Of a DNA stretch of 64,000 nucleotides, positions 260 to 15,384 are shown piece by piece. A program made the translations under genes and the position numbers. The notes under the pieces were generated by a model. It was not told the DNA's origin and did not search any database. It saw only the letters and a list, made by a program, of their open reading frames with translations. The stretch lies in IMG/VR virus record IMGVR_UViG_3300007734_000759, positions 1 to 64,000 of that record; one strand, given 5' to 3'. The stretch comes from a virus. Numbering within the stretch: the stretch's first letter is position 1; each line of letters begins with the position of its first letter.

Positions 260-283
260 TATCTTAACAAACCTTAAAATCTT

Positions 284-323
284 GGAGAGGAGTTGCATAC
301 TTGAATTCCTCTCCCTATCTTTA
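284..323 (+). promoter_or_regulatory. Bacteroidota-type promoter P1 with palindrome
   Basis: TTGCAT at 293-298 and TATCTTTA at 316-323 fit the -33/-7 spacing of Bacteroidota promoters. An 8-bp inverted repeat (GGAGAGGA 284-291, TCCTCTCC 307-314) brackets the -33 box and ends next to the -7 box, like an operator. It drives the gene at 344. Confidence 0.75.
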
Positions 324-343
324 GGTATCAAACAAAAACAGTT

Positions 344-505
344 ATGAAAACATTTATTATTGACCTCTACACAGGAAAAGTGGATGTCCTTCCTAAAGGA
401 GAGTTTAAAGATGCTATTGATGGACTTGAGGAAGTAGTGAGTGAAGGTGGTATTACATCCTATAGAGGAGAAGAGTACATTGTTGTAGTTCTTAAAAAAC
501 CTTAA
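344..505 (+). CDS. small hypothetical protein (53 aa)
   Basis: ATG at 344 follows the A-rich leader AAACAAAAACAGTT that recurs before most genes in this array. The product starts MKTFIIDLYTGKVDV and ends LKKP; its last codons are part of the next promoter's conserved upstream box. It looks like a compact beta-rich cytosolic protein. I do not recognise a family. Promoter, leader and stop-in-module arrangement support it as a real gene despite its size. Confidence 0.6.
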   Translation: MKTFIIDLYTGKVDVLPKGEFKDAIDGLEEVVSEGGITSYRGEEYIVVVLKKP

Positions 506-541
506 CAAAGGTTGCATATCGAATCAATAGGAGTATCTTTA
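491..541 (+). promoter_or_regulatory. Bacteroidota-type promoter P2 with upstream box
   Basis: The conserved box CTTAAAAAACCTTAAC (491-506) is followed by TTGCAT (512-517) and TATCTTTA (534-541), preceded by G (GTATCTTTA subclass). No palindrome lies between the boxes. Confidence 0.8.
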
Positions 542-569
542 GGTATCAAACAAATAAACAAAAACAGTT

Positions 570-665
570 ATGGTAGTAGTAATCTTTATGCTGTTCCTGA
601 TCTTGATGGGTCTAGGAAACATGAACAAGAAAATGAACAGGTACAATCGAACAAAACTAAAGTAA
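570..665 (+). CDS. tiny hydrophobic membrane peptide (31 aa)
   Basis: ATG at 570 comes directly after promoter P2 and its AAAAACAGTT leader. The product begins MVVVIFMLFLILMGLG, a single membrane-spanning helix, followed by a basic tail. Its stop (TAA 663-665) overlaps the ATG of the next gene at 665, so the two are probably translationally coupled. Function unknown. Confidence 0.5.
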   Translation: MVVVIFMLFLILMGLGNMNKKMNRYNRTKLK

Positions 666-865
666 TGAAGAAAATCAGATTAGTAGGTCGCTTAGCGGCA
701 TCAGCTCTTATAGCAATCTTTCTTGAAGGTTTGATGACATTGGGTCATGCATACAACTTCTCAGAGTACGGACCAATGGGATGGATCGTGCAAGGTTTGA
801 TCTTGGTATTGGTAGCTTGGATTGGTGCTGAGTGGCATGACCACGAAGAGAAGTTGAATTCTTAA
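665..865 (+). CDS. small two-helix membrane protein (66 aa)
   Basis: I place the start at 665 (MKKIRLVGRLAASALIA). A longer frame back to 512 exists, but its TTG start is the -33 box of P2 and would not be transcribed. The protein has two hydrophobic segments (about residues 6-27 and 38-55), an intervening NFSEYGPMGW loop and a charged C-terminal tail WHDHEEKLNS. The context of lipoproteins and membrane peptides suggests an envelope role such as superinfection exclusion. That is inference. Confidence 0.65.
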   Translation: MKKIRLVGRLAASALIAIFLEGLMTLGHAYNFSEYGPMGWIVQGLILVLVAWIGAEWHDHEEKLNS

Positions 866-911
866 AAAACCTTAACGGAGTGGGATCATAAGATCCCATT
901 CCCTATCTTTA
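861..911 (+). promoter_or_regulatory. Bacteroidota-type promoter P3, palindromic subclass
   Basis: The box CTTAAAAAACCTTAAC (861-876) is followed by TGGGAT (881-886) in the place of TTGCAT and by TATCTTTA (904-911). A perfect inverted repeat TGGGATC-ATAA-GATCCCA (881-898) covers the -33 region. Confidence 0.7.
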
Positions 912-931
912 AGTATCAAAAGCAAACAGTT

Positions 932-1480
932 ATGAAAAAAGCATTCGCATTAGCAGCATTGGTCCTATCCTTAGCAAGCTGCACAAAGTCAAAGTGGGAC
1001 GACAACCAACCTGTATGGGTTTATGAGTTTTGGTACAAGAAGTACATGATCTTGAATAACGGAGATACTGTACAAGGTATCAAAGTGAAACCGGATCAGT
1101 TTGGTAATCCAATCAAAGAGCTAATCAACTACAGCGGTCAAAGACCTTCAGCTCAAGGATGGACACCTATCGAATTGAATGCTGAGCAATTGGAAAACGT
1201 TCGTTGGAATTTAGGTAAGGATGATGGAGGAGCAAGGACGTTACAAGTTTGGAAGACAAGGTATGCAGGGAAGACTTTGAAAGAGATGATGAACTTCGGA
1301 GATCCAAACCATGATGGGTATGTTATAGATCCTGCATATGAGAATATGACTGTGGAGGATCTTAAAGCAATTGTTGAAGTATATGAACCTGGAATCTTGA
1401 TTGAGCATACTACGTACAAGTTAAGTCAAAGAGGAGAGACTACAAGGATCAGAGAAGAGATGTATTCCAAGAAAAACTAA
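932..1480 (+). CDS. phage lipoprotein (182 aa)
   Basis: The N-terminus MKKAFALAALVLSLASC is a lipoprotein signal peptide with lipobox L-A-S-C and Cys17 as the lipidated residue, so the product should be anchored in an envelope membrane. The mature part has a YMILNNGDTV motif and a C-terminal NMTVEDLKAIVEVY segment. Both motifs recur in the lipoprotein at 1795 (YVILNNGDTV, NLTADDVKMIVCDY), so the two are paralogues. Phage lipoproteins of this kind often block receptors or a second infection (T5 Llp is a known case). The specific role here is unknown. Confidence 0.8.
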   Translation: MKKAFALAALVLSLASCTKSKWDDNQPVWVYEFWYKKYMILNNGDTVQGIKVKPDQFGNPIKELINYSGQRPSAQGWTPIELNAEQLENVRWNLGKDDGGARTLQVWKTRYAGKTLKEMMNFGDPNHDGYVIDPAYENMTVEDLKAIVEVYEPGILIEHTTYKLSQRGETTRIREEMYSKKN

Positions 1481-1483
1481 TAT

Positions 1484-1534
1484 CTTAAAAAACCTTAACA
1501 GGAGTTGCATCCTAAGCAATTGGTTGTATCTTTA
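1484..1534 (+). promoter_or_regulatory. Bacteroidota-type promoter P4 with upstream box
   Basis: CTTAAAAAACCTTAAC is followed by TTGCAT (1505-1510) and TATCTTTA (1527-1534) with 22-nt box-to-box spacing. The leader differs from its neighbours: it carries AAAGGAG before the ATG at 1558, a rare Shine-Dalgarno-like site. Confidence 0.8.
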
Positions 1535-1557
1535 ATTCAAGAAAGGAGAACAAAGCA

Positions 1558-1728
1558 ATGGAACAAATTGGTCTTTATGTAATATCAGGATTGCTTGTAG
1601 CAAGCATGCTTGAATACCTTAATGGTCAAACAGGAAGTGATATCAAACTTAACTTGTTCGACAGATTATTGTTCGTTGTACTATGGCCTTTGTTTGGAGG
1701 TATGTTAGTAAAATCTCTAATATCTTAA
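1558..1728 (+). CDS. small membrane protein (56 aa)
   Basis: ATG at 1558 sits 7 nt after GAAAGGAG, one of very few genes here with a Shine-Dalgarno-like sequence. The product MEQIGLYVISGLLVAS... has two hydrophobic helices (about 4-18 and 36-53) separated by a polar NGQTGSDIK loop. It ends LIS, with the stop inside the CTTAAAAAACC box of the next promoter. Function unknown. Confidence 0.6.
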   Translation: MEQIGLYVISGLLVASMLEYLNGQTGSDIKLNLFDRLLFVVLWPLFGGMLVKSLIS

Positions 1729-1774
1729 AAAACCTTAACACCGGTTGCAGATCCAACCATCAGTCGTATCTTTA
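1724..1774 (+). promoter_or_regulatory. Bacteroidota-type promoter P5 with upstream box
   Basis: The conserved upstream box overlaps the stop codon of the previous gene. TTGCAG (1745-1750) and TATCTTTA (1767-1774) follow at 22-nt spacing, GTATCTTTA subclass. Confidence 0.8.
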
Positions 1775-1794
1775 GTTATCAAACAAACACAGTT

Positions 1795-2274
1795 ATGAAA
1801 AAAGCAATCTTAATCATCGCAGCAGTAATCACATTGGCATCTTGCTCAAAGCCAGAGCCATGTTGGGTTCAATTCACCCACTACAACGAATACGTGATCT
1901 TGAATAACGGTGACACTGTCACCTACGAAGATGGATTCGTAATGAGTGGAATGGCTACTGGAGCAACAAAGAGACAACTAACTCCACAAGAGCAAGAGCA
2001 ACTACAAAACCATCTCGACACAATGTGTCGTACAACGGTGAAGGGTTTCGAACCATTCCGTGACAAGGGAGAGAAGTGGAGAGAGATGGATTCCATTACT
2101 GGAAAGAAGCATACGTTGGATTACTGGATGAAGTTTCAAAACCATACCATCAAGGAGGAGTACAAGAACCTTACAGCGGACGACGTTAAGATGATTGTAT
2201 GTGATTACTACTACACCTACCAAATGTTCATGGATGATGGAGAGAAGAGATTGTACTACGACATCTTCGAATAA
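1795..2274 (+). CDS. phage lipoprotein (159 aa), paralogue of 932-1480
   Basis: MKKAILIIAAVITLASC is a lipoprotein signal peptide with Cys17 as the lipidation site. The mature protein shares the YVILNNGDTV motif near its start and the NLTADDVKMIV motif near its end with the product of 932-1480, while the middle has diverged. The shared ends and the gene order point to duplication. It ends with a Tyr-rich acidic tail. Likely envelope-located; function unknown. Confidence 0.8.
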   Translation: MKKAILIIAAVITLASCSKPEPCWVQFTHYNEYVILNNGDTVTYEDGFVMSGMATGATKRQLTPQEQEQLQNHLDTMCRTTVKGFEPFRDKGEKWREMDSITGKKHTLDYWMKFQNHTIKEEYKNLTADDVKMIVCDYYYTYQMFMDDGEKRLYYDIFE

Positions 2275-2284
2275 AAAGCAATAT

Positions 2285-2335
2285 CTTAAAAAACCTTAAC
2301 GGAGTGGGATCTTCGAATCCCATTCCCTATCTTTA
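2285..2335 (+). promoter_or_regulatory. Bacteroidota-type promoter P6, palindromic subclass
   Basis: The upstream box is followed by TGGGAT (2305-2310) and TATCTTTA (2328-2335) at 23-nt spacing. An inverted repeat TGGGAT-CTTCGA-ATCCCA (2305-2322) matches the architecture of P3. Confidence 0.7.
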
Positions 2336-2356
2336 GGTATCAAAAGCAAACAAGTT

Positions 2357-2503
2357 ATGGCAGCAGTTTACAAAGTAGAAGTAGTTTCACATTGGAAAAA
2401 CTACACTAAGGAAGAACTTGAAAAGATATTGAACGAAGCAATTAAAAAGCAAATTGAAACAGAATCAAATGAGATTACTATCGAAGTGCAAGAAAGAGTT
2501 TAA
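2357..2503 (+). CDS. small hypothetical protein (48 aa)
   Basis: ATG at 2357 follows promoter P6 and a CAAACAAGTT leader. The product MAAVYKVEVVSHWKNY... has a short beta strand, a KEELEKILNEAIKKQ helix and a final ITIEVQERV strand. That is a plausible small beta-alpha-beta fold. It is co-transcribed with the gene at 2515, 11 nt downstream. Function unknown. Confidence 0.6.
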   Translation: MAAVYKVEVVSHWKNYTKEELEKILNEAIKKQIETESNEITIEVQERV

Positions 2504-2514
2504 ATAAAAAAGTT

Positions 2515-2721
2515 ATGACACAACAAACAGCAGTAGAGTGGTTGGAAAATGAATACAATACAAAGGGTAAATTGACTGCAGTTGACTTTTACCAAGCCAA
2601 AGCAATGGAGAAGGAGCAAATCAAATTAGCATTCAGTATAGGAATGAATAGTAGTGTAGATTACTTTGATGGAGTTACTGATGAGGATGAGAATTACTAC
2701 AACGAAACATTCAATAAGTAA
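2515..2721 (+). CDS. conserved short phage/mobile-element protein (68 aa)
   Basis: The sequence TAVEWLENEY ... AKAMEKEQIKLAF ... YYNETF is a pattern I recognise from short uncharacterised proteins common in phages and mobile elements of Bacteroidota. Their function is not known. The protein is acidic and helical with no membrane segment. It is the second gene of the P6 transcript and is followed by promoter P7. Confidence 0.7.
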   Translation: MTQQTAVEWLENEYNTKGKLTAVDFYQAKAMEKEQIKLAFSIGMNSSVDYFDGVTDEDENYYNETFNK

Positions 2722-2727
2722 GAGTTC

Positions 2728-2777
2728 TTAAAAAACCTTAACAAAGGTTGCAGATCCAATCAATAGGAGTATCTTTA
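2728..2777 (+). promoter_or_regulatory. Bacteroidota-type promoter P7 with upstream box
   Basis: CTTAAAAAACCTTAAC precedes TTGCAG (2748-2753) and TATCTTTA (2770-2777), GTATCTTTA subclass. Confidence 0.8.
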
Positions 2778-2798
2778 GATATCAAAAGCAAACGAGTT

Positions 2799-2921
2799 AT
2801 GAATTATACTGAAAAGGAGATAAAGGTTATAGAGCAAAGAGCATATGACAAAGGTAGAATGGAAGGGGTTGTAGTAACCTTACTAATATGCCTACTGGGT
2901 TTAATCCTTGTGTTACTATAA
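2799..2921 (+). CDS. small membrane protein (40 aa)
   Basis: ATG at 2799 follows P7 and the leader AAAGCAAACGAGTT. The N-terminal half (MNYTEKEIKVIEQRAYDKGR) is a polar helix and the C-terminal half (VVVTLLICLLGLILVLL) is one transmembrane helix. This is a tail-anchored layout. It lies directly upstream of the tRNA-like element at 2928. Function unknown. Confidence 0.55.
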   Translation: MNYTEKEIKVIEQRAYDKGRMEGVVVTLLICLLGLILVLL

Positions 2922-2927
2922 TAAAAT

Positions 2928-3040
2928 AGTCAGGTGGCGGAATTGGTTAGACGCTGCCCGTGGAGGGTTGATTGGTTCCGTTCGACTCGGACGTTGGAAA
3001 TGGTGTTCCACAAATACAGGTTCGAATCCTGTCCTGACTG
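2928..3040 (+). tRNA. aberrant tRNA-like gene, class II (Leu/Ser type)
   Basis: A full acceptor stem (AGTCAGG 2928-2934, CCTGACT 3033-3039) and a canonical T arm (ACAGG-TTCGAAT-CCTGT 3016-3032) are present. The D arm TGGCGGAATTGG...GACGC is the one typical of tRNA-Leu. The region between D stem and variable arm is about 20 nt too long. A 7-nt loop TTCGACT on a CCG/CGG stem (2978-2990) would give anticodon CGA. A TGGAA/TTCCA hairpin (2995-3010) could be the long variable arm. It may be a functional odd tRNA, an insertion-bearing tRNA or a decayed one; the amino acid is uncertain. Confidence 0.55.
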
Positions 3041-3063
3041 CAAAATAAAGAATTTAGGTATTT

Positions 3064-3114
3064 CTTAAAAAACCTTAACAGAGCTTGTCATTCAAATCAA
3101 TAGGAGTATCTTTA
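3064..3114 (+). promoter_or_regulatory. Bacteroidota-type promoter P8 with upstream box
   Basis: CTTAAAAAACCTTAAC is followed by TTGTCA (3085-3090) and TATCTTTA (3107-3114) at 22-nt spacing. Confidence 0.75.
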
Positions 3115-3135
3115 GTTATCAAAAGAAACAAAGCT

Positions 3136-3315
3136 ATGACAAAGAATCAAAAAAGCAGATTAGTTGAGGTGATCAACTTAAACATCGAAGAAGCAAATCG
3201 TCTATTCAAAACAAAAGAACAGTCTGATGCTTACATCATCGGCTTCCTGCAAGGAGTATTGAGAGTAGTAAGAGATGAACTTGAAGAAGGTATAGAAGAA
3301 AAAGTAATATCTTAA
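3136..3315 (+). CDS. small hypothetical protein (59 aa)
   Basis: The start is ATG 3136 (MTKNQKSRLVEV). An in-frame extension to 3085 would use the -33 box as its start codon, so I reject it. The product is a helical cytosolic protein with the segments IEEANRLFKTKEQ and GFLQGVLRVVRDELEEG. It ends VIS with the stop inside the next promoter's upstream box. Function unknown. Confidence 0.6.
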   Translation: MTKNQKSRLVEVINLNIEEANRLFKTKEQSDAYIIGFLQGVLRVVRDELEEGIEEKVIS

Positions 3316-3361
3316 AAAACCTTAACGAGAGTTGATCATTAAACATTCAGTCGTATCTTTA
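3311..3361 (+). promoter_or_regulatory. Bacteroidota-type promoter P9 with upstream box
   Basis: CTTAAAAAACCTTAAC overlaps the stop of the previous gene. TTGATC (3332-3337) and TATCTTTA (3354-3361) follow at 22-nt spacing. Confidence 0.75.
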
Positions 3362-3382
3362 GATATCAAAAGCAAACAAGTT

Positions 3383-3541
3383 ATGAAAACAATCATGTCA
3401 CTAATCGTAGTCGTTCTTATCTCAAGTTGTATGTCAACGAACGGATGTATCGGAGGAGCTGATCATAATAAGAGAGTAGCTCAGAAGAGACATCACTATC
3501 GAGCTAAACATCGTTCATACACTCACTCATATTACAACTAA
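3383..3541 (+). CDS. small His-rich lipoprotein (52 aa)
   Basis: The start is ATG 3383; the longer frame from 3332 begins in the promoter. MKTIMSLIVVVLISSC is a lipoprotein signal with Cys16 as the lipidation residue. The mature part is only about 36 residues, with a second Cys in NGCIGG and a basic His/Tyr-rich tail (KRHHYRAKHRSYTHSYY). It is likely anchored in the envelope; the His-rich tail could bind metal or anionic surface polymer. Function unknown. Confidence 0.65.
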   Translation: MKTIMSLIVVVLISSCMSTNGCIGGADHNKRVAQKRHHYRAKHRSYTHSYYN

Positions 3542-3549
3542 TCTAATTT

Positions 3550-3610
3550 CTTAAAAAGTCTTAACAAAAGAAAAAAAAAGTTGAAGATCGAAAAGTAAGT
3601 AGTATCTTTA
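3550..3610 (+). promoter_or_regulatory. Bacteroidota-type promoter P10
   Basis: A diverged upstream box (CTTAAAAAGTCTTAAC) precedes TTGAAG (3581-3586) and TATCTTTA (3603-3610). The leader to the ATG at 3661 is unusually long and made of repeated AAACATTTAAACAAAC units. Confidence 0.7.
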
Positions 3611-3660
3611 AGTATTGAAAAAATAAACAAACATTTAAACAAACATTAAACAAAAACGTT

Positions 3661-3906
3661 ATGAAAAATTCAAAAAACAAAACAACTGAAACTCAAGTAG
3701 TTAACACAGTAGTTGAAAAAGTAATCTCTAAATCAGACGTATGTCGTGAGTTAGTTATTAAAGACTCTACTATTACTTTAAAGTATGTGAATCAAGAATT
3801 AACAAAGAGAGGTTTTAATACTATGTACTACTCTGAGTTACTTCGAGTTAAAGTTCAAGTTAAGAAGATGAACGAAAAAGCTAAGACTGAAGAAGTTACA
3901 GCTTAA
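3661..3906 (+). CDS. small hypothetical protein (81 aa)
   Basis: ATG at 3661 follows P10 and an A-rich leader. The product has a polar Lys/Asn/Thr start, a central DVCRELVIKDSTITLKYVNQELTKRGFNT segment reminiscent of a helix-turn-helix, and a basic C-terminus. DNA or RNA binding is possible but not shown. It is the last gene of the small-gene array, and its stop is about 30 bp before a terminator. Confidence 0.6.
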   Translation: MKNSKNKTTETQVVNTVVEKVISKSDVCRELVIKDSTITLKYVNQELTKRGFNTMYYSELLRVKVQVKKMNEKAKTEEVTA

Positions 3907-4364: not shown

Positions 4365-5423
4365 ATGAAAAGAGCTATTAACGAAAATACAATCCCAAAG
4401 TGGGTTGCCGACATTTTTAAAACTAAGAAAGAAAAGAGATCGGAACAAGATCAAGTAGATCTAGATAGATACGTGGCTGACTTACGTTTCACAGACCCCA
4501 AGAGGTACGAACGCCTACAGGACATACTGAAGCATGTTGATCCGGATACCGGGCACCTTCCAACCGGGTTAAACACTGGTAATGTTGATGAGTCGGTACT
4601 TGACGATATTAAAGCAAGTCCTAACAAATTTACAAATTGGGAATATAAAGATCCAAAAAATCCATCCCTCGCAAGAAGAATTGTATCAAAGGGTAGGAAT
4701 GCCAACGAAGCAGCTTTGTATGTTAAAATGAGGTATCCAGAATACCCAAAGCTAAACCCACAATACTTTGAGGATACTGGTGTGGTGGTTTCATTGATTG
4801 ATAGATATGTCGAGGCTATTTATAATGGAGAGACAGAGGCTCCCGAAAAAGGGGAGACTCCTTACTTTATGAGAGAAACTAATAACAAAATGAAAAAAAG
4901 TGATTTAATGGAAATGATCCGCGAGGTTATTGCGGAAGAAGTAGGTAAGGTGGATGTTGTCCTTCCTGGAGAAGGAGTGATCGCCTCCGTAACCCCTGAG
5001 CAGAAGAAAGAGCTAAACGGTAAGGGATTTACAAAGAAAGAGCTTAAGGCTTTCGGAATCGATCACGAAGCGATCCGGGATGATATCCGATACAAGGTAT
5101 CAGGTGATAAGTCTTTGCAGCTTACATCTATTCTAAATAAAATACCTGATAACCCGTATTCACATAAAAAAGTAACAGAAAATAAAATGAAAGTAAATCA
5201 ACTAAGACAAATCATTAGAGAAGAAATCTCTAAGGTGTTGAAAGAAAACGCCCTTGGTCTTTCCCCCGATGGAGAGATGTTGTTCAACAAGTGGAAAGCT
5301 GTAAAACTTAAATACAACCCTGAGCTCGCAGCAATGTCTGATGAAGAACTTCTTGCTATGATGAGAGAGTTCGAAAGACACGAAGAGGAAATAGATCGTA
5401 GAGAGCGCTTGAGAGATATGTGA
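4365..5423 (+). CDS. hypothetical protein with two internal capsid-tag-like repeats (352 aa)
   Basis: ATG at 4365 starts MKRAINENTIPKWVADIF. Residues 1-170 are an acidic/basic mixed domain that I do not recognise. Residues about 176-193 (MKKSDLMEMIREVIAEEV) and 275-294 (MKVNQLRQIIREEISKVL) are two copies of the amphipathic motif found at the N-termini of many late proteins in this window. The protein thus looks like three segments joined by tag-like linkers that end in (I/L)xE sequences suited to the gp21 protease. It could be a polyprotein cut during head maturation. That is inference. Confidence 0.65.
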   Translation: MKRAINENTIPKWVADIFKTKKEKRSEQDQVDLDRYVADLRFTDPKRYERLQDILKHVDPDTGHLPTGLNTGNVDESVLDDIKASPNKFTNWEYKDPKNPSLARRIVSKGRNANEAALYVKMRYPEYPKLNPQYFEDTGVVVSLIDRYVEAIYNGETEAPEKGETPYFMRETNNKMKKSDLMEMIREVIAEEVGKVDVVLPGEGVIASVTPEQKKELNGKGFTKKELKAFGIDHEAIRDDIRYKVSGDKSLQLTSILNKIPDNPYSHKKVTENKMKVNQLRQIIREEISKVLKENALGLSPDGEMLFNKWKAVKLKYNPELAAMSDEELLAMMREFERHEEEIDRRERLRDM

Positions 5424-5465
5424 GTATTAACAAATAGTTAAACTACATAACAATTCCTTAACAGA

Positions 5466-5494
5466 GCCGCGTTAATTCGCGGCTTTGCTTTTTT
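5466..5494 (+). terminator. rho-independent terminator
   Basis: GCCGCG (5466-5471), TTAATT loop, CGCGGC (5478-5483) followed by TTTGCTTTTTT. It closes the 4365 transcript. Confidence 0.85.
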
Positions 5495-5499
5495 ATTAG

Positions 5500-5507
5500 T
5501 ATCTTTA
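5500..5507 (+). promoter_or_regulatory. probable -7 box TATCTTTA without clear -33 TTG
   Basis: TATCTTTA at 5500-5507 matches the -7 box of the left-end promoters and precedes the gene at 5544. The terminator hairpin occupies the expected -33 position. Confidence 0.5.
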
Positions 5508-5543: not shown

Positions 5544-6173
5544 ATGAAAAAACTAATGGTTGCGGTTGTATTAACGCTATTGACGTTATTTAATTTTCAA
5601 ACTGAGGCAAGACCTCGAACCCATAAAAAGCACGTGGGTAAAACCACGCACACACGAGTTCACAACCGCAAAAAGCACAAACCTCATCATAAGAAGGTTA
5701 GAAGAAAAAAGAATGTAAAAAGGAAAAATCGTTGTCCAAAATTCGCGCGGACTAATCCTAAGGCTGTTCACGACATAGTACTTGATATGAGTGCTAAGCA
5801 TGAGGTACCTGCTGAGATTGTGTTTGCCGTAATGTATTATGAGACTGGATACCGTGGTGTAGATCACAAGTCTTATAATGGTAAACGTGTCTCAAGATGT
5901 GGTGCCGTAGGACCTATGCAAATTATGCCTCGTTATGCTGGGAAGGTATTAGGACGTAGGGTGTCTCGTTCCGAGCTTCTAACCAACTACCATACTAACA
6001 TTGAGGTTGGAGTTAAGATGCTTGCTCGTCACTATAAGATGTACGGTTCTTGGTTGAGAGCATTGGGAGCGTACTCAACAGGCAGACCTTATGCCAACAA
6101 GTACGGACGTAGGATTCTCAACAAAGCTAATCAGATTGAAGAGCAAATGCTTATAGCAGGTACGAATTGTTAA
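5544..6173 (+). CDS. secreted lytic transglycosylase (SLT/GEWL fold)
   Basis: Cleaves the MurNAc-GlcNAc bond of peptidoglycan. Residues 1-22 (MKKLMVAVVLTLLTLFNFQT) are a signal peptide, so it acts in the periplasm. Residues 24-63 are an extremely basic His/Lys/Arg region likely to bind anionic polymers. The catalytic domain begins near 70: E100 in the MYYETGY motif is the expected catalytic Glu, and GAVGPMQIMP (120-129) is the signature substrate-groove motif. The C-terminal ALGAYSTG matches the usual A-YN-G block. It has its own -7 box and may help local wall opening. An adsorption-stage role is less likely because it carries a signal peptide. Confidence 0.85.
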   Translation: MKKLMVAVVLTLLTLFNFQTEARPRTHKKHVGKTTHTRVHNRKKHKPHHKKVRRKKNVKRKNRCPKFARTNPKAVHDIVLDMSAKHEVPAEIVFAVMYYETGYRGVDHKSYNGKRVSRCGAVGPMQIMPRYAGKVLGRRVSRSELLTNYHTNIEVGVKMLARHYKMYGSWLRALGAYSTGRPYANKYGRRILNKANQIEEQMLIAGTNC

Positions 6174-6188
6174 AATTCCTTAACACAG

Positions 6189-6219
6189 TTGCTATTTATG
6201 ATACAAGTTCGTATCTTTA
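6189..6219 (+). promoter_or_regulatory. Bacteroidota-type promoter P11
   Basis: TTGCTA (6189-6194) and TATCTTTA (6212-6219) at 23-nt spacing, preceded by CCTTAACACAG, a remnant of the upstream box. It drives the lipoprotein gene at 6258. Confidence 0.75.
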
Positions 6220-6257
6220 TATTATAACACAACAGAAACATTTAAAACCAAATTTAT

Positions 6258-6440
6258 ATGAAACAGTTATTTTTAATCGGTGCTCTAGGATTGGCTTTGG
6301 CATCTTGCAATGGTGGTTCTACAAAAGGTGAAACTACTACAAATGATTCTACAATGGTATGTGATTCTACCGTATGTGATTCTACCGTATGTGACTCAAC
6401 CGCTTGTGATACCACAGTTGTAGATACAACCTCTAAGTAA
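6258..6440 (+). CDS. repeat lipoprotein (60 aa)
   Basis: MKQLFLIGALGLALASC is a lipoprotein signal with Cys17 as the lipidated residue. The mature 43 residues are low-complexity: three VCDST/ACDTT-type pentapeptides in tandem, then VVDTTSK. The DNA repeat (TATGTGATTCTACCG units) shows recent expansion by slippage. Regular Cys residues could form disulfides or be modified at the cell surface. It is co-transcribed with the basic protein at 6442. Function unknown. Confidence 0.7.
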   Translation: MKQLFLIGALGLALASCNGGSTKGETTTNDSTMVCDSTVCDSTVCDSTACDTTVVDTTSK

Positions 6441-7020: not shown

Positions 7021-7203
7021 ATGGATAAATTTAGAGAACTACCTATCAAGGAGTATGATATAGTGTCGCAAATGATGAATGCCGCTTCCGAACATGGTTT
7101 AGAAGTTGAAGTTGTGACAGAGTTTATAAGCATTCTTAGAAATGATATGGACATAGATCTTGCAGAGGCAGCAGCTATGGCTTTAATTGAATGGGATATT
7201 TAA
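7021..7203 (+). CDS. small hypothetical protein (60 aa)
   Basis: ATG at 7021 lies 11 bp after the tRNA-Gln CCA end, so the gene is probably transcribed with the tRNA cluster. The product MDKFRELPIKEYDIVSQMMNA... is acidic and helical, without membrane segments or known motifs. It is followed within 15 bp by the next gene. Confidence 0.55.
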   Translation: MDKFRELPIKEYDIVSQMMNAASEHGLEVEVVTEFISILRNDMDIDLAEAAAMALIEWDI

Positions 7204-14411: not shown

Positions 14412-14683
14412 TGGAAATAATTATAGGAATCACATCAGGCCTGCTTTTAATAGCGGGCTTTGTTATTTGGAATCTACTAAGCAAAGTAGAACGCCAAGAA
14501 GATTTAATTGAGAAGTATCAACAATATCTTACATCTTTAGACACATCAATTAAACTTTCATCAAAGAGATTGGAAGAAATAGATGTTAAAGGAATGTTTA
14601 GTTCCGATGATGAGATAGGTTGGTATTTTAAACAGATAAAAGAAATCCAATTAATATTGGATGACTATAAGCTTAAAATATAA
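14411..14683 (+). CDS. membrane-anchored small protein (90 aa)
   Basis: An N-terminal transmembrane helix (MEIIIGITSGLLLIAGFVIWNLL) is followed by a helical cytosolic part with SKRLEEIDVKGMFSSDDEIGWYFKQIKEIQ. Similar proteins sit beside gp55 in marine T4-like phages in my recollection, without known function. It overlaps both neighbours by 1 nt, so it belongs to the gp55 operon. Confidence 0.6.
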   Translation: MEIIIGITSGLLLIAGFVIWNLLSKVERQEDLIEKYQQYLTSLDTSIKLSSKRLEEIDVKGMFSSDDEIGWYFKQIKEIQLILDDYKLKI

Positions 14684-15384
14684 TGGTGGAGAAAAAATCT
14701 AAAAACTATTTTACAAAGGAAACTGAAGATGCTATAGTTCTATACAATAATAGTAGTGATTCTTACTATAAAAATAAGATATACAATGAAAAGATAAGAT
14801 ATGCTTTCTTTAAGCTAACAGAAAATATCATACATACGTATAAATTTTACTACACAGAAGAAACTTCCATTGAGGATCTACAGCACGAAGTTACCACCTT
14901 TCTACTATCTAAGATACACCTATTTGATATATCGAAAGGTGCTAAAGCTTATTCATACTTCGGTACCATTGCCAAGAGGTATTTAATAATGACAAATACC
15001 AAAAACTATAAACGTAAAATAGAAAAAACATCGGTATCTGAGATAGAGGATAGTGCGGATTTTAGTTATAACCTAACAGATCAGGATAACTTACAAGATG
15101 AGCTATCAGACTATATTAATAAATTCATAGACTACGTAACAGATAATATATATGAGTTGTTCCCTAAGGATGAAGATGCCCAGATAGCTGATGCAATACT
15201 TGAATTGTTTAGGAAACGTATGAGCTTGGATGTGTTAAATAAAAAAGCTCTTTACATTTATATTAGAGAACAGATAGACGTTAAGACTCCCAAAATTACA
15301 AAGGTAGCTAACGATTTACATAGTATCTTTAAGAGAGGTTACATCCACTATATAGAGGAAGGTTATGTTTCTTTTGAAAATTAA
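14683..15384 (+). CDS. 55: late-transcription sigma factor, T4 gp55-like (233 aa)
   Basis: Recruits host RNA polymerase to phage late promoters. Residues 65-102 (DLQHEVTTFLLSKIHLF ... KAYSYFGTIAKRYLI) match the reduced sigma-70 region 2 of T4-like gp55. The preceding YNEKIRYAFFKLTENIIHTYKFYY block is also typical of the family in marine T4-like phages. The length (233 aa) is slightly above T4 gp55 (185 aa). Its presence fits the second promoter class (TATTTAT motif) before structural genes. Sliding-clamp coactivation, as in T4, cannot be judged from this window. Confidence 0.85.
   Translation: MVEKKSKNYFTKETEDAIVLYNNSSDSYYKNKIYNEKIRYAFFKLTENIIHTYKFYYTEETSIEDLQHEVTTFLLSKIHLFDISKGAKAYSYFGTIAKRYLIMTNTKNYKRKIEKTSVSEIEDSADFSYNLTDQDNLQDELSDYINKFIDYVTDNIYELFPKDEDAQIADAILELFRKRMSLDVLNKKALYIYIREQIDVKTPKITKVANDLHSIFKRGYIHYIEEGYVSFEN

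Follow-up and report, generated by a model that had tools for sequence, protein, structure and literature searches.

The window analysed, a stretch of 64,000 nt, belongs to the 159 kb genome of an Immutovirus-like phage of the T4 type, in which TerL, portal, major head protein and baseplate wedge were recognised as T4-type markers with PHROGs. A 127-bp repeat is found at both ends of the record, and the record is therefore taken to be circular. Positions 263-3660 hold part of an array of small genes, each one or two of them preceded by a repeated module, and further modules occur at 128-159 kb. There are 38 modules on the plus strand genome-wide, 10 of them at 263-3660. A genome-wide module scan returned none in the structural half (6.2-94.2 kb); the last module ahead of the structural genes (6169..6257, plus strand, box with 3 mismatches, -7 box at 6212-6219) lies upstream of ORF 6258-6440. 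A RecA/RadA-type recombinase related to that of Flavobacterium phage vB_FspM_immuto_2-6A (immuto) is encoded at 85625-86695. Ten array proteins compared with Pfam and PHROGs gave weak matches only, none above the Pfam cut-off, so the functions of the genes are left unclaimed.

Every module follows the same order: a box of two half-sites (CTTAAMAAAYCTTAAC), usually a TTG at -33, a -7 box (TATCTTTA), a short leader and the ATG. All ten in the window are on the plus strand, and each is named here with the ORFs that it is predicted to drive. Module 1 (263..343; ORF 344-505) is of class B, its box being shifted upstream by one helical turn to 52 nt from the -7 box at 316, and a strong hairpin covers its -33 region and spacer. 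The box of module 2 (491..569, -7 box 534-541; ORFs 570-665 and 665-865) contains the stop of ORF 344-505. In module 3 (861..931, -7 box 904-911), ahead of the lipoprotein-like ORF 932-1480, a hairpin (GGAGTGGGATC/GATCCCATTCC) replaces the -33 TTG. Module 4 (1484..1557, -7 box 1527-1534; ORF 1558-1728) has an atypical leader, and module 5 (1724..1794, -7 box 1767-1774) precedes a second lipoprotein-like ORF, 1795-2274, a paralogue of ORF 932-1480 with 28% identity. Module 6 (2285..2356, -7 box 2328-2335) serves ORFs 2357-2503 and 2515-2721, module 7 (2727..2798, -7 box 2770-2777) serves ORF 2799-2921, and module 8 (3064..3135, -7 box 3107-3114) serves ORF 3136-3315, whose stop lies inside the box of module 9 (3311..3382, -7 box 3354-3361; ORF 3383-3541). 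Module 10 (3550..3660) is again of class B, with its box 52 nt from the -7 box at 3603 and a long leader before ORF 3661-3906, a paralogue of 157576-157818 (49% identity).

The ten box copies reported in the earlier note were all recovered, with TATCTTTA downstream in 10/10. Eight are exact copies of CTTAAAAAACCTTAAC and two (263, 3550) carry 2 mismatches; at up to 3 mismatches the window holds 13 box matches against 2.3 expected, a count reached in 0/100 shuffles. Other details of that description proved less uniform. The element given as TTGCA(T/G) or a variant is present as a TTG at the -33 place in 8/10 modules, but a GGGATC hairpin arm takes its place at 861 and 2285. TATCAAA lies 3′ of the -7 box in eight of the ten and is missing from two, and AGTT precedes the ATG in seven, the rest having AGCA, AGCT or CGTT. 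The preceding stop codon, said often to fall inside the box, does so in 4/10; it lies within 4-11 nt in five and 143 nt off in one, where a tRNA-like element fills the gap.

Genome-wide, TTAA-N6-TTAA occurs in the 80 nt upstream of TATCTTTA at 39/57 sites, where the expectation is ~0.02 per site. The distance from box to -7 box is 42 nt in 28 cases, 52 in four, 53 in five, 72 in one and 80 in one (on the minus strand), placing 37/39 boxes at 42, 52 or 53 nt, on one helix face, with 38/39 box-bearing modules on one strand. The TTG stands mostly 22-23 nt upstream of TATCTTTA. This anatomy and phasing are direct observations. Since the box is phased at these distances on the same helix face, we regard it as a working part of a promoter; a function in recombination instead of transcription was rejected in view of the strict phasing to the -7 box. 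Strong hairpins occur in 9/38 home modules and in 7/28, 6/18, 11/18 and 8/16 modules of the related records L015, L108, L111 and L112, with a mean z of only -0.7 to -1.6.

Most likely, the module built around TATCTTTA is a compact promoter from which one or two of the small accessory genes are transcribed. The flavobacterial sigma-A consensus, defined in F. psychrophilum, is TAnnTTTG at -12 to -5 (PMC9723704). In all modules counted, TATCTTTA fits every position of this consensus but the last. The promoter claim of the earlier note is supported in that -7 box and spacing fit this promoter type. A TAnnTTT core at -7 and short 5′ leaders are common to the F. psychrophilum promoters (PMC9723704) and the modules, whereas the modules end the -7 box in A, not G, and continue with a conserved GGTATCAA or AGTATTGAA. 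We expect the modules to be read early, probably by the host's own RNA polymerase and primary sigma factor, through the -33 TTG, the -7 TATCTTTA and a short A-rich leader without a Shine-Dalgarno sequence. The CTTAA pair, whole helical turns away from the -7 box, may be contacted by an activator or, in the way of an UP element, by RNA polymerase. As a candidate phage sigma factor, the one Sigma70_r2 match of the genome (14839-14991) was sub-threshold and insufficient.

The CTTAA box could also be the site of a dedicated regulator, and the array would then form a regulon, switched by a protein of the host or of the phage, and not simply a set of strong promoters. We give this possibility slightly less than an even chance. 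Proteins of the OmpR/PhoB type use tandem direct half-sites 10 bp apart, and the sequence-specific half-sites, the 10-bp period and the strict phasing of the box would suit such a site. So would its restriction to the studied phage: 15 related records have no more than 3 box-like matches on either strand, as in controls, and the exact home-type full module has no match in IMG/VR outside its own record. However, position and A-richness fit an UP element equally well, the relatives, whose modules have only A-rich tracts in place of the CTTAA box, seem to manage without it, and no regulator emerged from the analysis. In bacterial genomes the exact home-type module has two single matches, one in Gilliamella and one in a Campylobacteraceae MAG, both regarded as chance. 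A regulator site would be compatible with a role of the modules as seams.

The reading we favour, with a probability of roughly 0.7, is that the modules are both promoters and recombination seams through which gene cassettes are shuffled. They qualify as seams because tens of near-copies, in one direction, stand between unrelated small genes. The modules of the home array are themselves mosaics. The spacer of module 6 equals that of module 3 at 23/27 positions, and their genes are unrelated. In module 7 the spacer is shared with module 5 on its left and with modules 2 and 8 on its right; that of module 8 is shared with the module at 158881 on its left and with modules 2 and 7 on its right. An aligned run of at least 9 is found in 21/378 spacer pairs, compared with a mean of 2.8 in 1000 column permutations, none of which reached 21. 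The longest shared run, 15, was equalled in 13/1000 permutations.

The shuffling proposed in the earlier note is supported in three related lineages; it is seen in relatives and not in the studied phage, for which no close relatives were found, so that no event is visible in its own array. The home-array DUF932 protein used as a query found no relatives, and relatives did turn up with its homologue from L102 as the query. The relatives compared are metagenome assemblies, in the pairs L108/L110, L111/L112 and L145/L146. Within each pair the differences are of whole cassettes, and a chimeric module stands in the genome that lacks the cassette. Five such gains or losses are observed, with the left half of the chimera from one copy and the right half from another: L108 11957/12357 against L110 7157, L110 12040/13615 against L108 17994, L111 1559/2515 and 3377/5661 against L112 2607 and 3468, and L146 against L145 17254. 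Exchange breakpoints inside a module are seen in this chimeric form in relatives only. The earlier note would have been refuted by an array whose gene content is fully conserved among relatives, and this is clearly not the case: Immutovirus matches 0/12 ORFs of the window array and 4/51 of the rest of the array, with 62/92 matched in the comparison region (10.8-94.2 kb).

Breakpoints fall near -7 boxes in 9/14 cases in L108 and 10/18 in L111, where 2.1 are expected in each (P ~0.002 for both, by rotation of the modules). Under a rival reading the modules are repeated promoters only, alike through selection: breaks would occur anywhere near gene starts, only joins that keep a promoter would survive, and the modules would be no cause of recombination. 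The gene-start control agrees with this to a degree, since right-hand breakpoints at module-bearing starts number 4/6 in L108, where 16/23 starts have a module, and 6/8 in L111, where 16/31 do, so that no preference for modules over other gene starts is demonstrated. Cassette turnover is also heavy in the module-poor pair L145/L146, with 19 junctions and one recognised module each. We nevertheless consider this explanation unlikely, because crossovers within the shared core yield mosaic modules, because non-functional spacer letters are common to unrelated cassettes beyond column composition, and because the crossover lies within the L108 module pair 11957/12357, whose two copies are 90% alike over 78 nt.

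Two further explanations were rejected as highly improbable. A mobile repeat (REP/MITE-like) inserted beside small genes would account for the hairpins and for near-identical copies adjoining unrelated genes, but not for the single orientation and fixed -7 box distances of the copies, which are mosaic, not clonal, and show neither terminal repeats nor target duplications. Assembly errors at short repeats are a natural concern with metagenome contigs whose seams are repeats, but G006 and G007, which stem from two data sets, agree over 17.5 kb (99.99%), the shared cores are mostly ~16-30 nt, below usual read length, and the five events span three lineages.

If the modules do act as seams, two copies would recombine, typically across the core TTCG-TATMTTTA-GGTAT. 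Whole cassettes would thereby be deleted, inserted or replaced, and one complete promoter would remain. The gene upstream would keep the left half, made up of hairpin, -33 and spacer, and the gene downstream would keep the right half, the leader. Recombination proteins encoded by the phage itself presumably carry out the exchange.

The cassette of module 7 carries a passenger, a tRNA-like RNA without an anticodon arm (2928..3040, plus strand; Rfam tRNA, 36 bits). It has 275 distinct relatives with interchangeable cores. These are not canonical tRNAs: among the 222 of 275 family elements taken into the test (53 were set aside), an anticodon arm (5 bp, 7-nt loop after the D arm) was found in 7, and in 8/200 shuffled cores. 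ARAGORN calls a tRNA in 49/275 and misses the window copy. A literature search for tRNA-like phage RNAs without an anticodon found nothing, and the family is apparently undescribed. We tentatively suggest, with the odds leaning against it, that the cassette pool also moves a new class of RNA. Its tRNA chassis, with the acceptor AGTCAGG/CCTGACT, a D arm and a T arm, would be constant, and interchangeable cores of ~10-130 nt, often structured, would take the place of the anticodon arm. RNase P and RNase Z would free these RNAs as protected small RNAs that act on the host as decoys or antisense agents, and the promoter modules would shuffle them between phages. Their confirmation would add a large RNA class, so far undescribed, to aquatic phages.

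The modules flag dozens of tiny genes whose expression probably begins on entry, a natural place to search for anti-defence and host-takeover genes. There is a precedent in archaeal viruses, in which early regulatory sequences mark anti-defence genes (abstract of PMC11065993). There, likewise, one conserved promoter precedes many unrelated small early genes; those promoters are archaeal, unlike the modules, and the abstract makes no claim of recombination. A literature search for promoter arrays in Bacteroidetes or Flavobacterium phages found nothing, and Microcystis phage Mel-JY01 (TerL 54%) has no module array. In immuto (Immutovirus, MW353175) an array likewise lies ahead of the baseplate genes, and its module core matches, with AGTTGCC upstream, TATMTTTAGGTATCAA, a leader and the ATG; unlike the array studied here, it has no CTTAA box, and it shares 0/12 window-array genes.

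The likeness to T4-related phages drawn in the earlier note is apt. Promoter early stem-loops (PeSLs) are repeated early-promoter stem-loop elements between small genes in the variable regions of T4-type phages, for which cassette shuffling has been proposed (Arbiol 2010 and Comeau 2014, as cited in PMC4503421 and PMC4177764). The modules resemble them in the T4-type genome, in the 38 plus-strand copies between small genes, in their variable region and, as the chimeric modules of the relatives show, in gene-exchange breakpoints that fall inside the element. In PeSLs the hairpin stands beside the promoter, and the early promoter is of the E. coli sigma-70 type. The modules, in contrast, have a Bacteroidota-type -7 box with the TTG mostly 22-23 nt upstream, an A-rich leader and a phased CTTAA pair, and their hairpin, strong in a minority of home modules, overlaps the -33 and spacer. 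Because the promoter is not of the E. coli sigma-70 type, the module is PeSL-like in its working and is not classed as a PeSL. What differs is thus the sequence, the type of host and the way in which hairpin and promoter overlap. The joins are resolved at base level: the -7 box, at which the promoter does its work, is also where joins usually fall. Our data extend promoter-seam shuffling, known from T4-type phages of other hosts, to Immutovirus-like phages of Bacteroidota: the trick itself is that of T4-like viruses, and what is new is a version for a different host group.

The small-gene promoter array proposed in the earlier note is borne out and is larger than first reported. All ten boxes claimed there are present in the sequence, and they form part of a genome-wide set: across the whole genome, 39 of the 57 TATCTTTA sites have TTAA-N6-TTAA within 80 nt upstream, 38 of these on the plus strand, against a chance expectation of about 0.02 boxes per site. 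No module sites are listed at 6.2-94.2 kb, the region of the structural genes. In the 28 class A modules the distance from box start to -7 box is 42 nt; in the 9 of class B it is 52 or 53 nt, about one helical turn longer; the two remaining modules have 72 nt and, on the minus strand, 80 nt. A TTG is found 22-24 nt upstream of the -7 box in 28 of the 39 modules and 26 nt upstream in one, and is missing in 10. Because such strict phasing is what protein contact requires, the CTTAA-pair box would most simply be an UP-like element or activator site. PMC9723704 gives the flavobacterial sigma-A consensus as TAnnTTTG at -12 to -5; our -7 box is similar, but its final base is A. The leaders have no Shine-Dalgarno motif, as judged by eye. 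PMC6847099 describes F. johnsoniae genes without Shine-Dalgarno sequences, in which an A at -3 favours initiation, whereas GTT ends 8 of the 10 window leaders and places G at -3.

The genome is circular and 159 kb long, as bases 1-127 of the window recur at the end of the record; the window thus begins inside the genome. Matches to PHROGs of T4-type phages were obtained for TerL, portal, major head protein and baseplate wedge. The nearest relative found among isolates was Flavobacterium phage vB_FspM_immuto_2-6A (immuto), with 59% TerL identity; identity reaches 70% among the IMG/VR records kept, and is 64% for the record of related locus L108. Bacteroidota is the probable host phylum, judging from the isolate relative and from the type of promoter. 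The TerL of Microcystis phage Mel-JY01 (PP395634.1, 15768-17366) is 54% identical to that of this Bacteroidota-type phage, and its three core-module matches are scattered; its host or kinship is worth a look. In the record of locus L113, TerL (73716-76477) appears as two matches, residues 1-250 and 246-522, about 1.2 kb apart, a pattern expected from an intron or a homing endonuclease insertion. The window ORF at 14683-15384, shared with Immutovirus (45%, at 78174-78860), has a sub-threshold Sigma70_r2 match at 14839-14991 (21 bits, cut-off 24) and may encode a late sigma factor like gp55 of T4.

Full conservation of array gene content among relatives, the test set in the earlier note, is not what we see. 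None of the 12 window-array ORFs (344-3906) has a tblastn match in immuto, and 4 of 51 do at 139.7-159.2 kb, 62 of 92 at 10.8-94.2 kb and 31 of 81 at 94.2-139.6 kb. Window array genes take part in four small-gene paralogue pairs (932/1795, 2515/154408, 3661/157576 and 1558/131213). The 27-nt spacers of the 28 class A modules also share runs of sequence. Among 378 pairs, 21 have an aligned run of at least 9 (2.8 expected) and 8 a run of at least 11 (0.4 expected), counts reached by none of 1000 column permutations; the longest common run, 15, was reached by 13 of the 1000. Modules 534, 1767, 2770, 3107 and 158923 (named by -7 box start) form a chain of half-shared spacers, the trace that crossovers within modules would leave. 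Modules 904 and 2328 have 23 of 27 spacer letters in common, and their downstream genes are unrelated.

No IMG/VR record other than its own matches the exact home module, and no near relative of the phage was found. Two single matches in a bacterial and archaeal genome collection were taken as chance. Relatives were found via another pattern and via the DUF932 gene located in the array; module counts at the 61 DUF932 loci are 7 to 17 in six (L108-L113) and 0 to 4 in the remaining 55. Over matching parts, L108 and L110 are 92% identical, and L111 and L112 83.5%. L108 has one cassette of about 400 bp more than L110, flanked by two modules 90% alike over 78 nt, and the single L110 module at that site matches the left L108 copy in its left part and the right copy in its right part. 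Conversely, 1.6 kb present in L110 and not in L108 is flanked by two modules whose only common sequence is the 16-nt core TTCGTATATTTACATA; here the chimera is in L108. L111 has an extra cassette between modules 1559 and 2515 and, between modules 3377 and 5661, another additional stretch with a further module at 4367; in both cases the L112 module is chimeric, with its seam at the core. L145/L146, of a module-poor lineage, provide one more chimeric case, with the switch in the spacer.

Breakpoints were taken as the ends of collinear pieces (gap of at least 60) inside the array span, and were scored as near a module at -45 to +30 of the -7 box. Against rotated module positions, a null that takes no account of gene starts, 9 of 14 were near in L108 (2.06 expected, P 0.002) and 9 of 14 in L110 (1.73 expected), counting for this pair only breakpoints inside the array span; the figures were 10 of 18 in L111 (2.09 expected) and 11 of 18 in L112 (1.81 expected). 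Of right-hand breakpoints near a gene start, 4 of 6 in L108 and 6 of 8 in L111 fall at module-bearing starts, where 16 of 23 and 16 of 31 starts bear a module; one further breakpoint in each lies elsewhere. Joins therefore fall at gene starts and inside modules, but the data do not show that modules are favoured over other starts. The chimeric modules are stronger evidence than these statistics. The earlier proposal of recombination between modules is thus upheld by cassette differences with chimeric modules in relatives, but not by any preference for modules as join sites.

Strong hairpins (-6 kcal/mol or lower between -32 and the -7 box) occur in 9 of 38 home modules, 7 of 28 in immuto, 6 of 18 in L108, 11 of 18 in L111 and 8 of 16 in L112. 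The z-scores average a weak -0.7 to -1.6, so hairpins belong to some modules, not all. In L108 and L111, several of them combine a G+C-rich stem and a loop containing TTGG with a run of T right before the -7 box, and look like an intrinsic terminator overlapping the promoter. Just outside the home array, at 5460-5507, a hairpin and T run directly 5′ of a TATCTTTA box that lacks the CTTAA pair make a putative terminator fused with a promoter. In related locus L102, two stretches (5575-5644 and 7092-7162) are 84% identical. On the minus strand they read as the core promoter of the modules (TTCGTATCTTTAGGATGTCGG), and in the next 70 nt or so no gene is evident; this may be a small RNA.

The module-7 cassette holds a tRNA-like element (2928-3040) that scores 36 bits against Rfam tRNA and is not called by ARAGORN. 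It shares a constant acceptor stem, AGTCAGG/CCTGACT, with elements in L111 (2027-2127, 2378-2470, 11064-11175) and L113 (16573-17577); L111 has several copies, three of them within the cassette missing from L112. Two IMG/VR pattern scans returned at least 120 stretches each, and the loci collected contain at least 275 different elements, about 60 to 190 nt long, with some phages carrying several on one contig. Common to them are AGTCAGGTGG, the greater part of a D arm and, in nearly all, ACAGGTTCGAATCCTGTCCTGACT, ends that the search pattern itself mostly fixes. The family has D and T arms but lacks an anticodon arm, one being seen in 7 of the 222 elements that could be tested and in 8 of 200 shuffled cores. 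Its cores are highly variable and resemble each other as shuffled sequence does (mean score -0.143 vs -0.155; 241 cores of 30-80 nt). Singletons make up 163 of the 275 cores, and the others fall into 40 small families; BLAST gave 250 hits for the real cores and 0 for shuffled ones. In the largest family (nine members, seven folded) a CG pair of the core is replaced by UA in 3 of 7 sequences, both partners having changed, a hint of structure and no more. A stop codon lies within 20 nt upstream of 218 of the 275 elements and an ATG within 30 nt downstream of 156, counts that have no control set. Among the best 25 of 121 isolate phage records, at most 26% of the element is matched, mostly the T arm, and immuto has no such element. 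Our literature search found no description of a tRNA-like phage RNA without an anticodon, which does not itself prove novelty. At 16087-16149 of L113, within a cluster of tRNAs and tRNA-like elements, is an Rfam freshwater-1 sRNA match (72.3 bits, gathering threshold 72).

The array is well supported as a promoter-seam array of a T4-type Bacteroidota phage, known in kind and more extensive than first reported. Semilegitimate recombination at conserved intergenic signals is described in PMC4177764. The home modules work like the promoter early stem-loops (PeSLs) of T4-type phages, but we do not file them as PeSLs, because their promoter is of another type and only a minority of them contain stem-loops.
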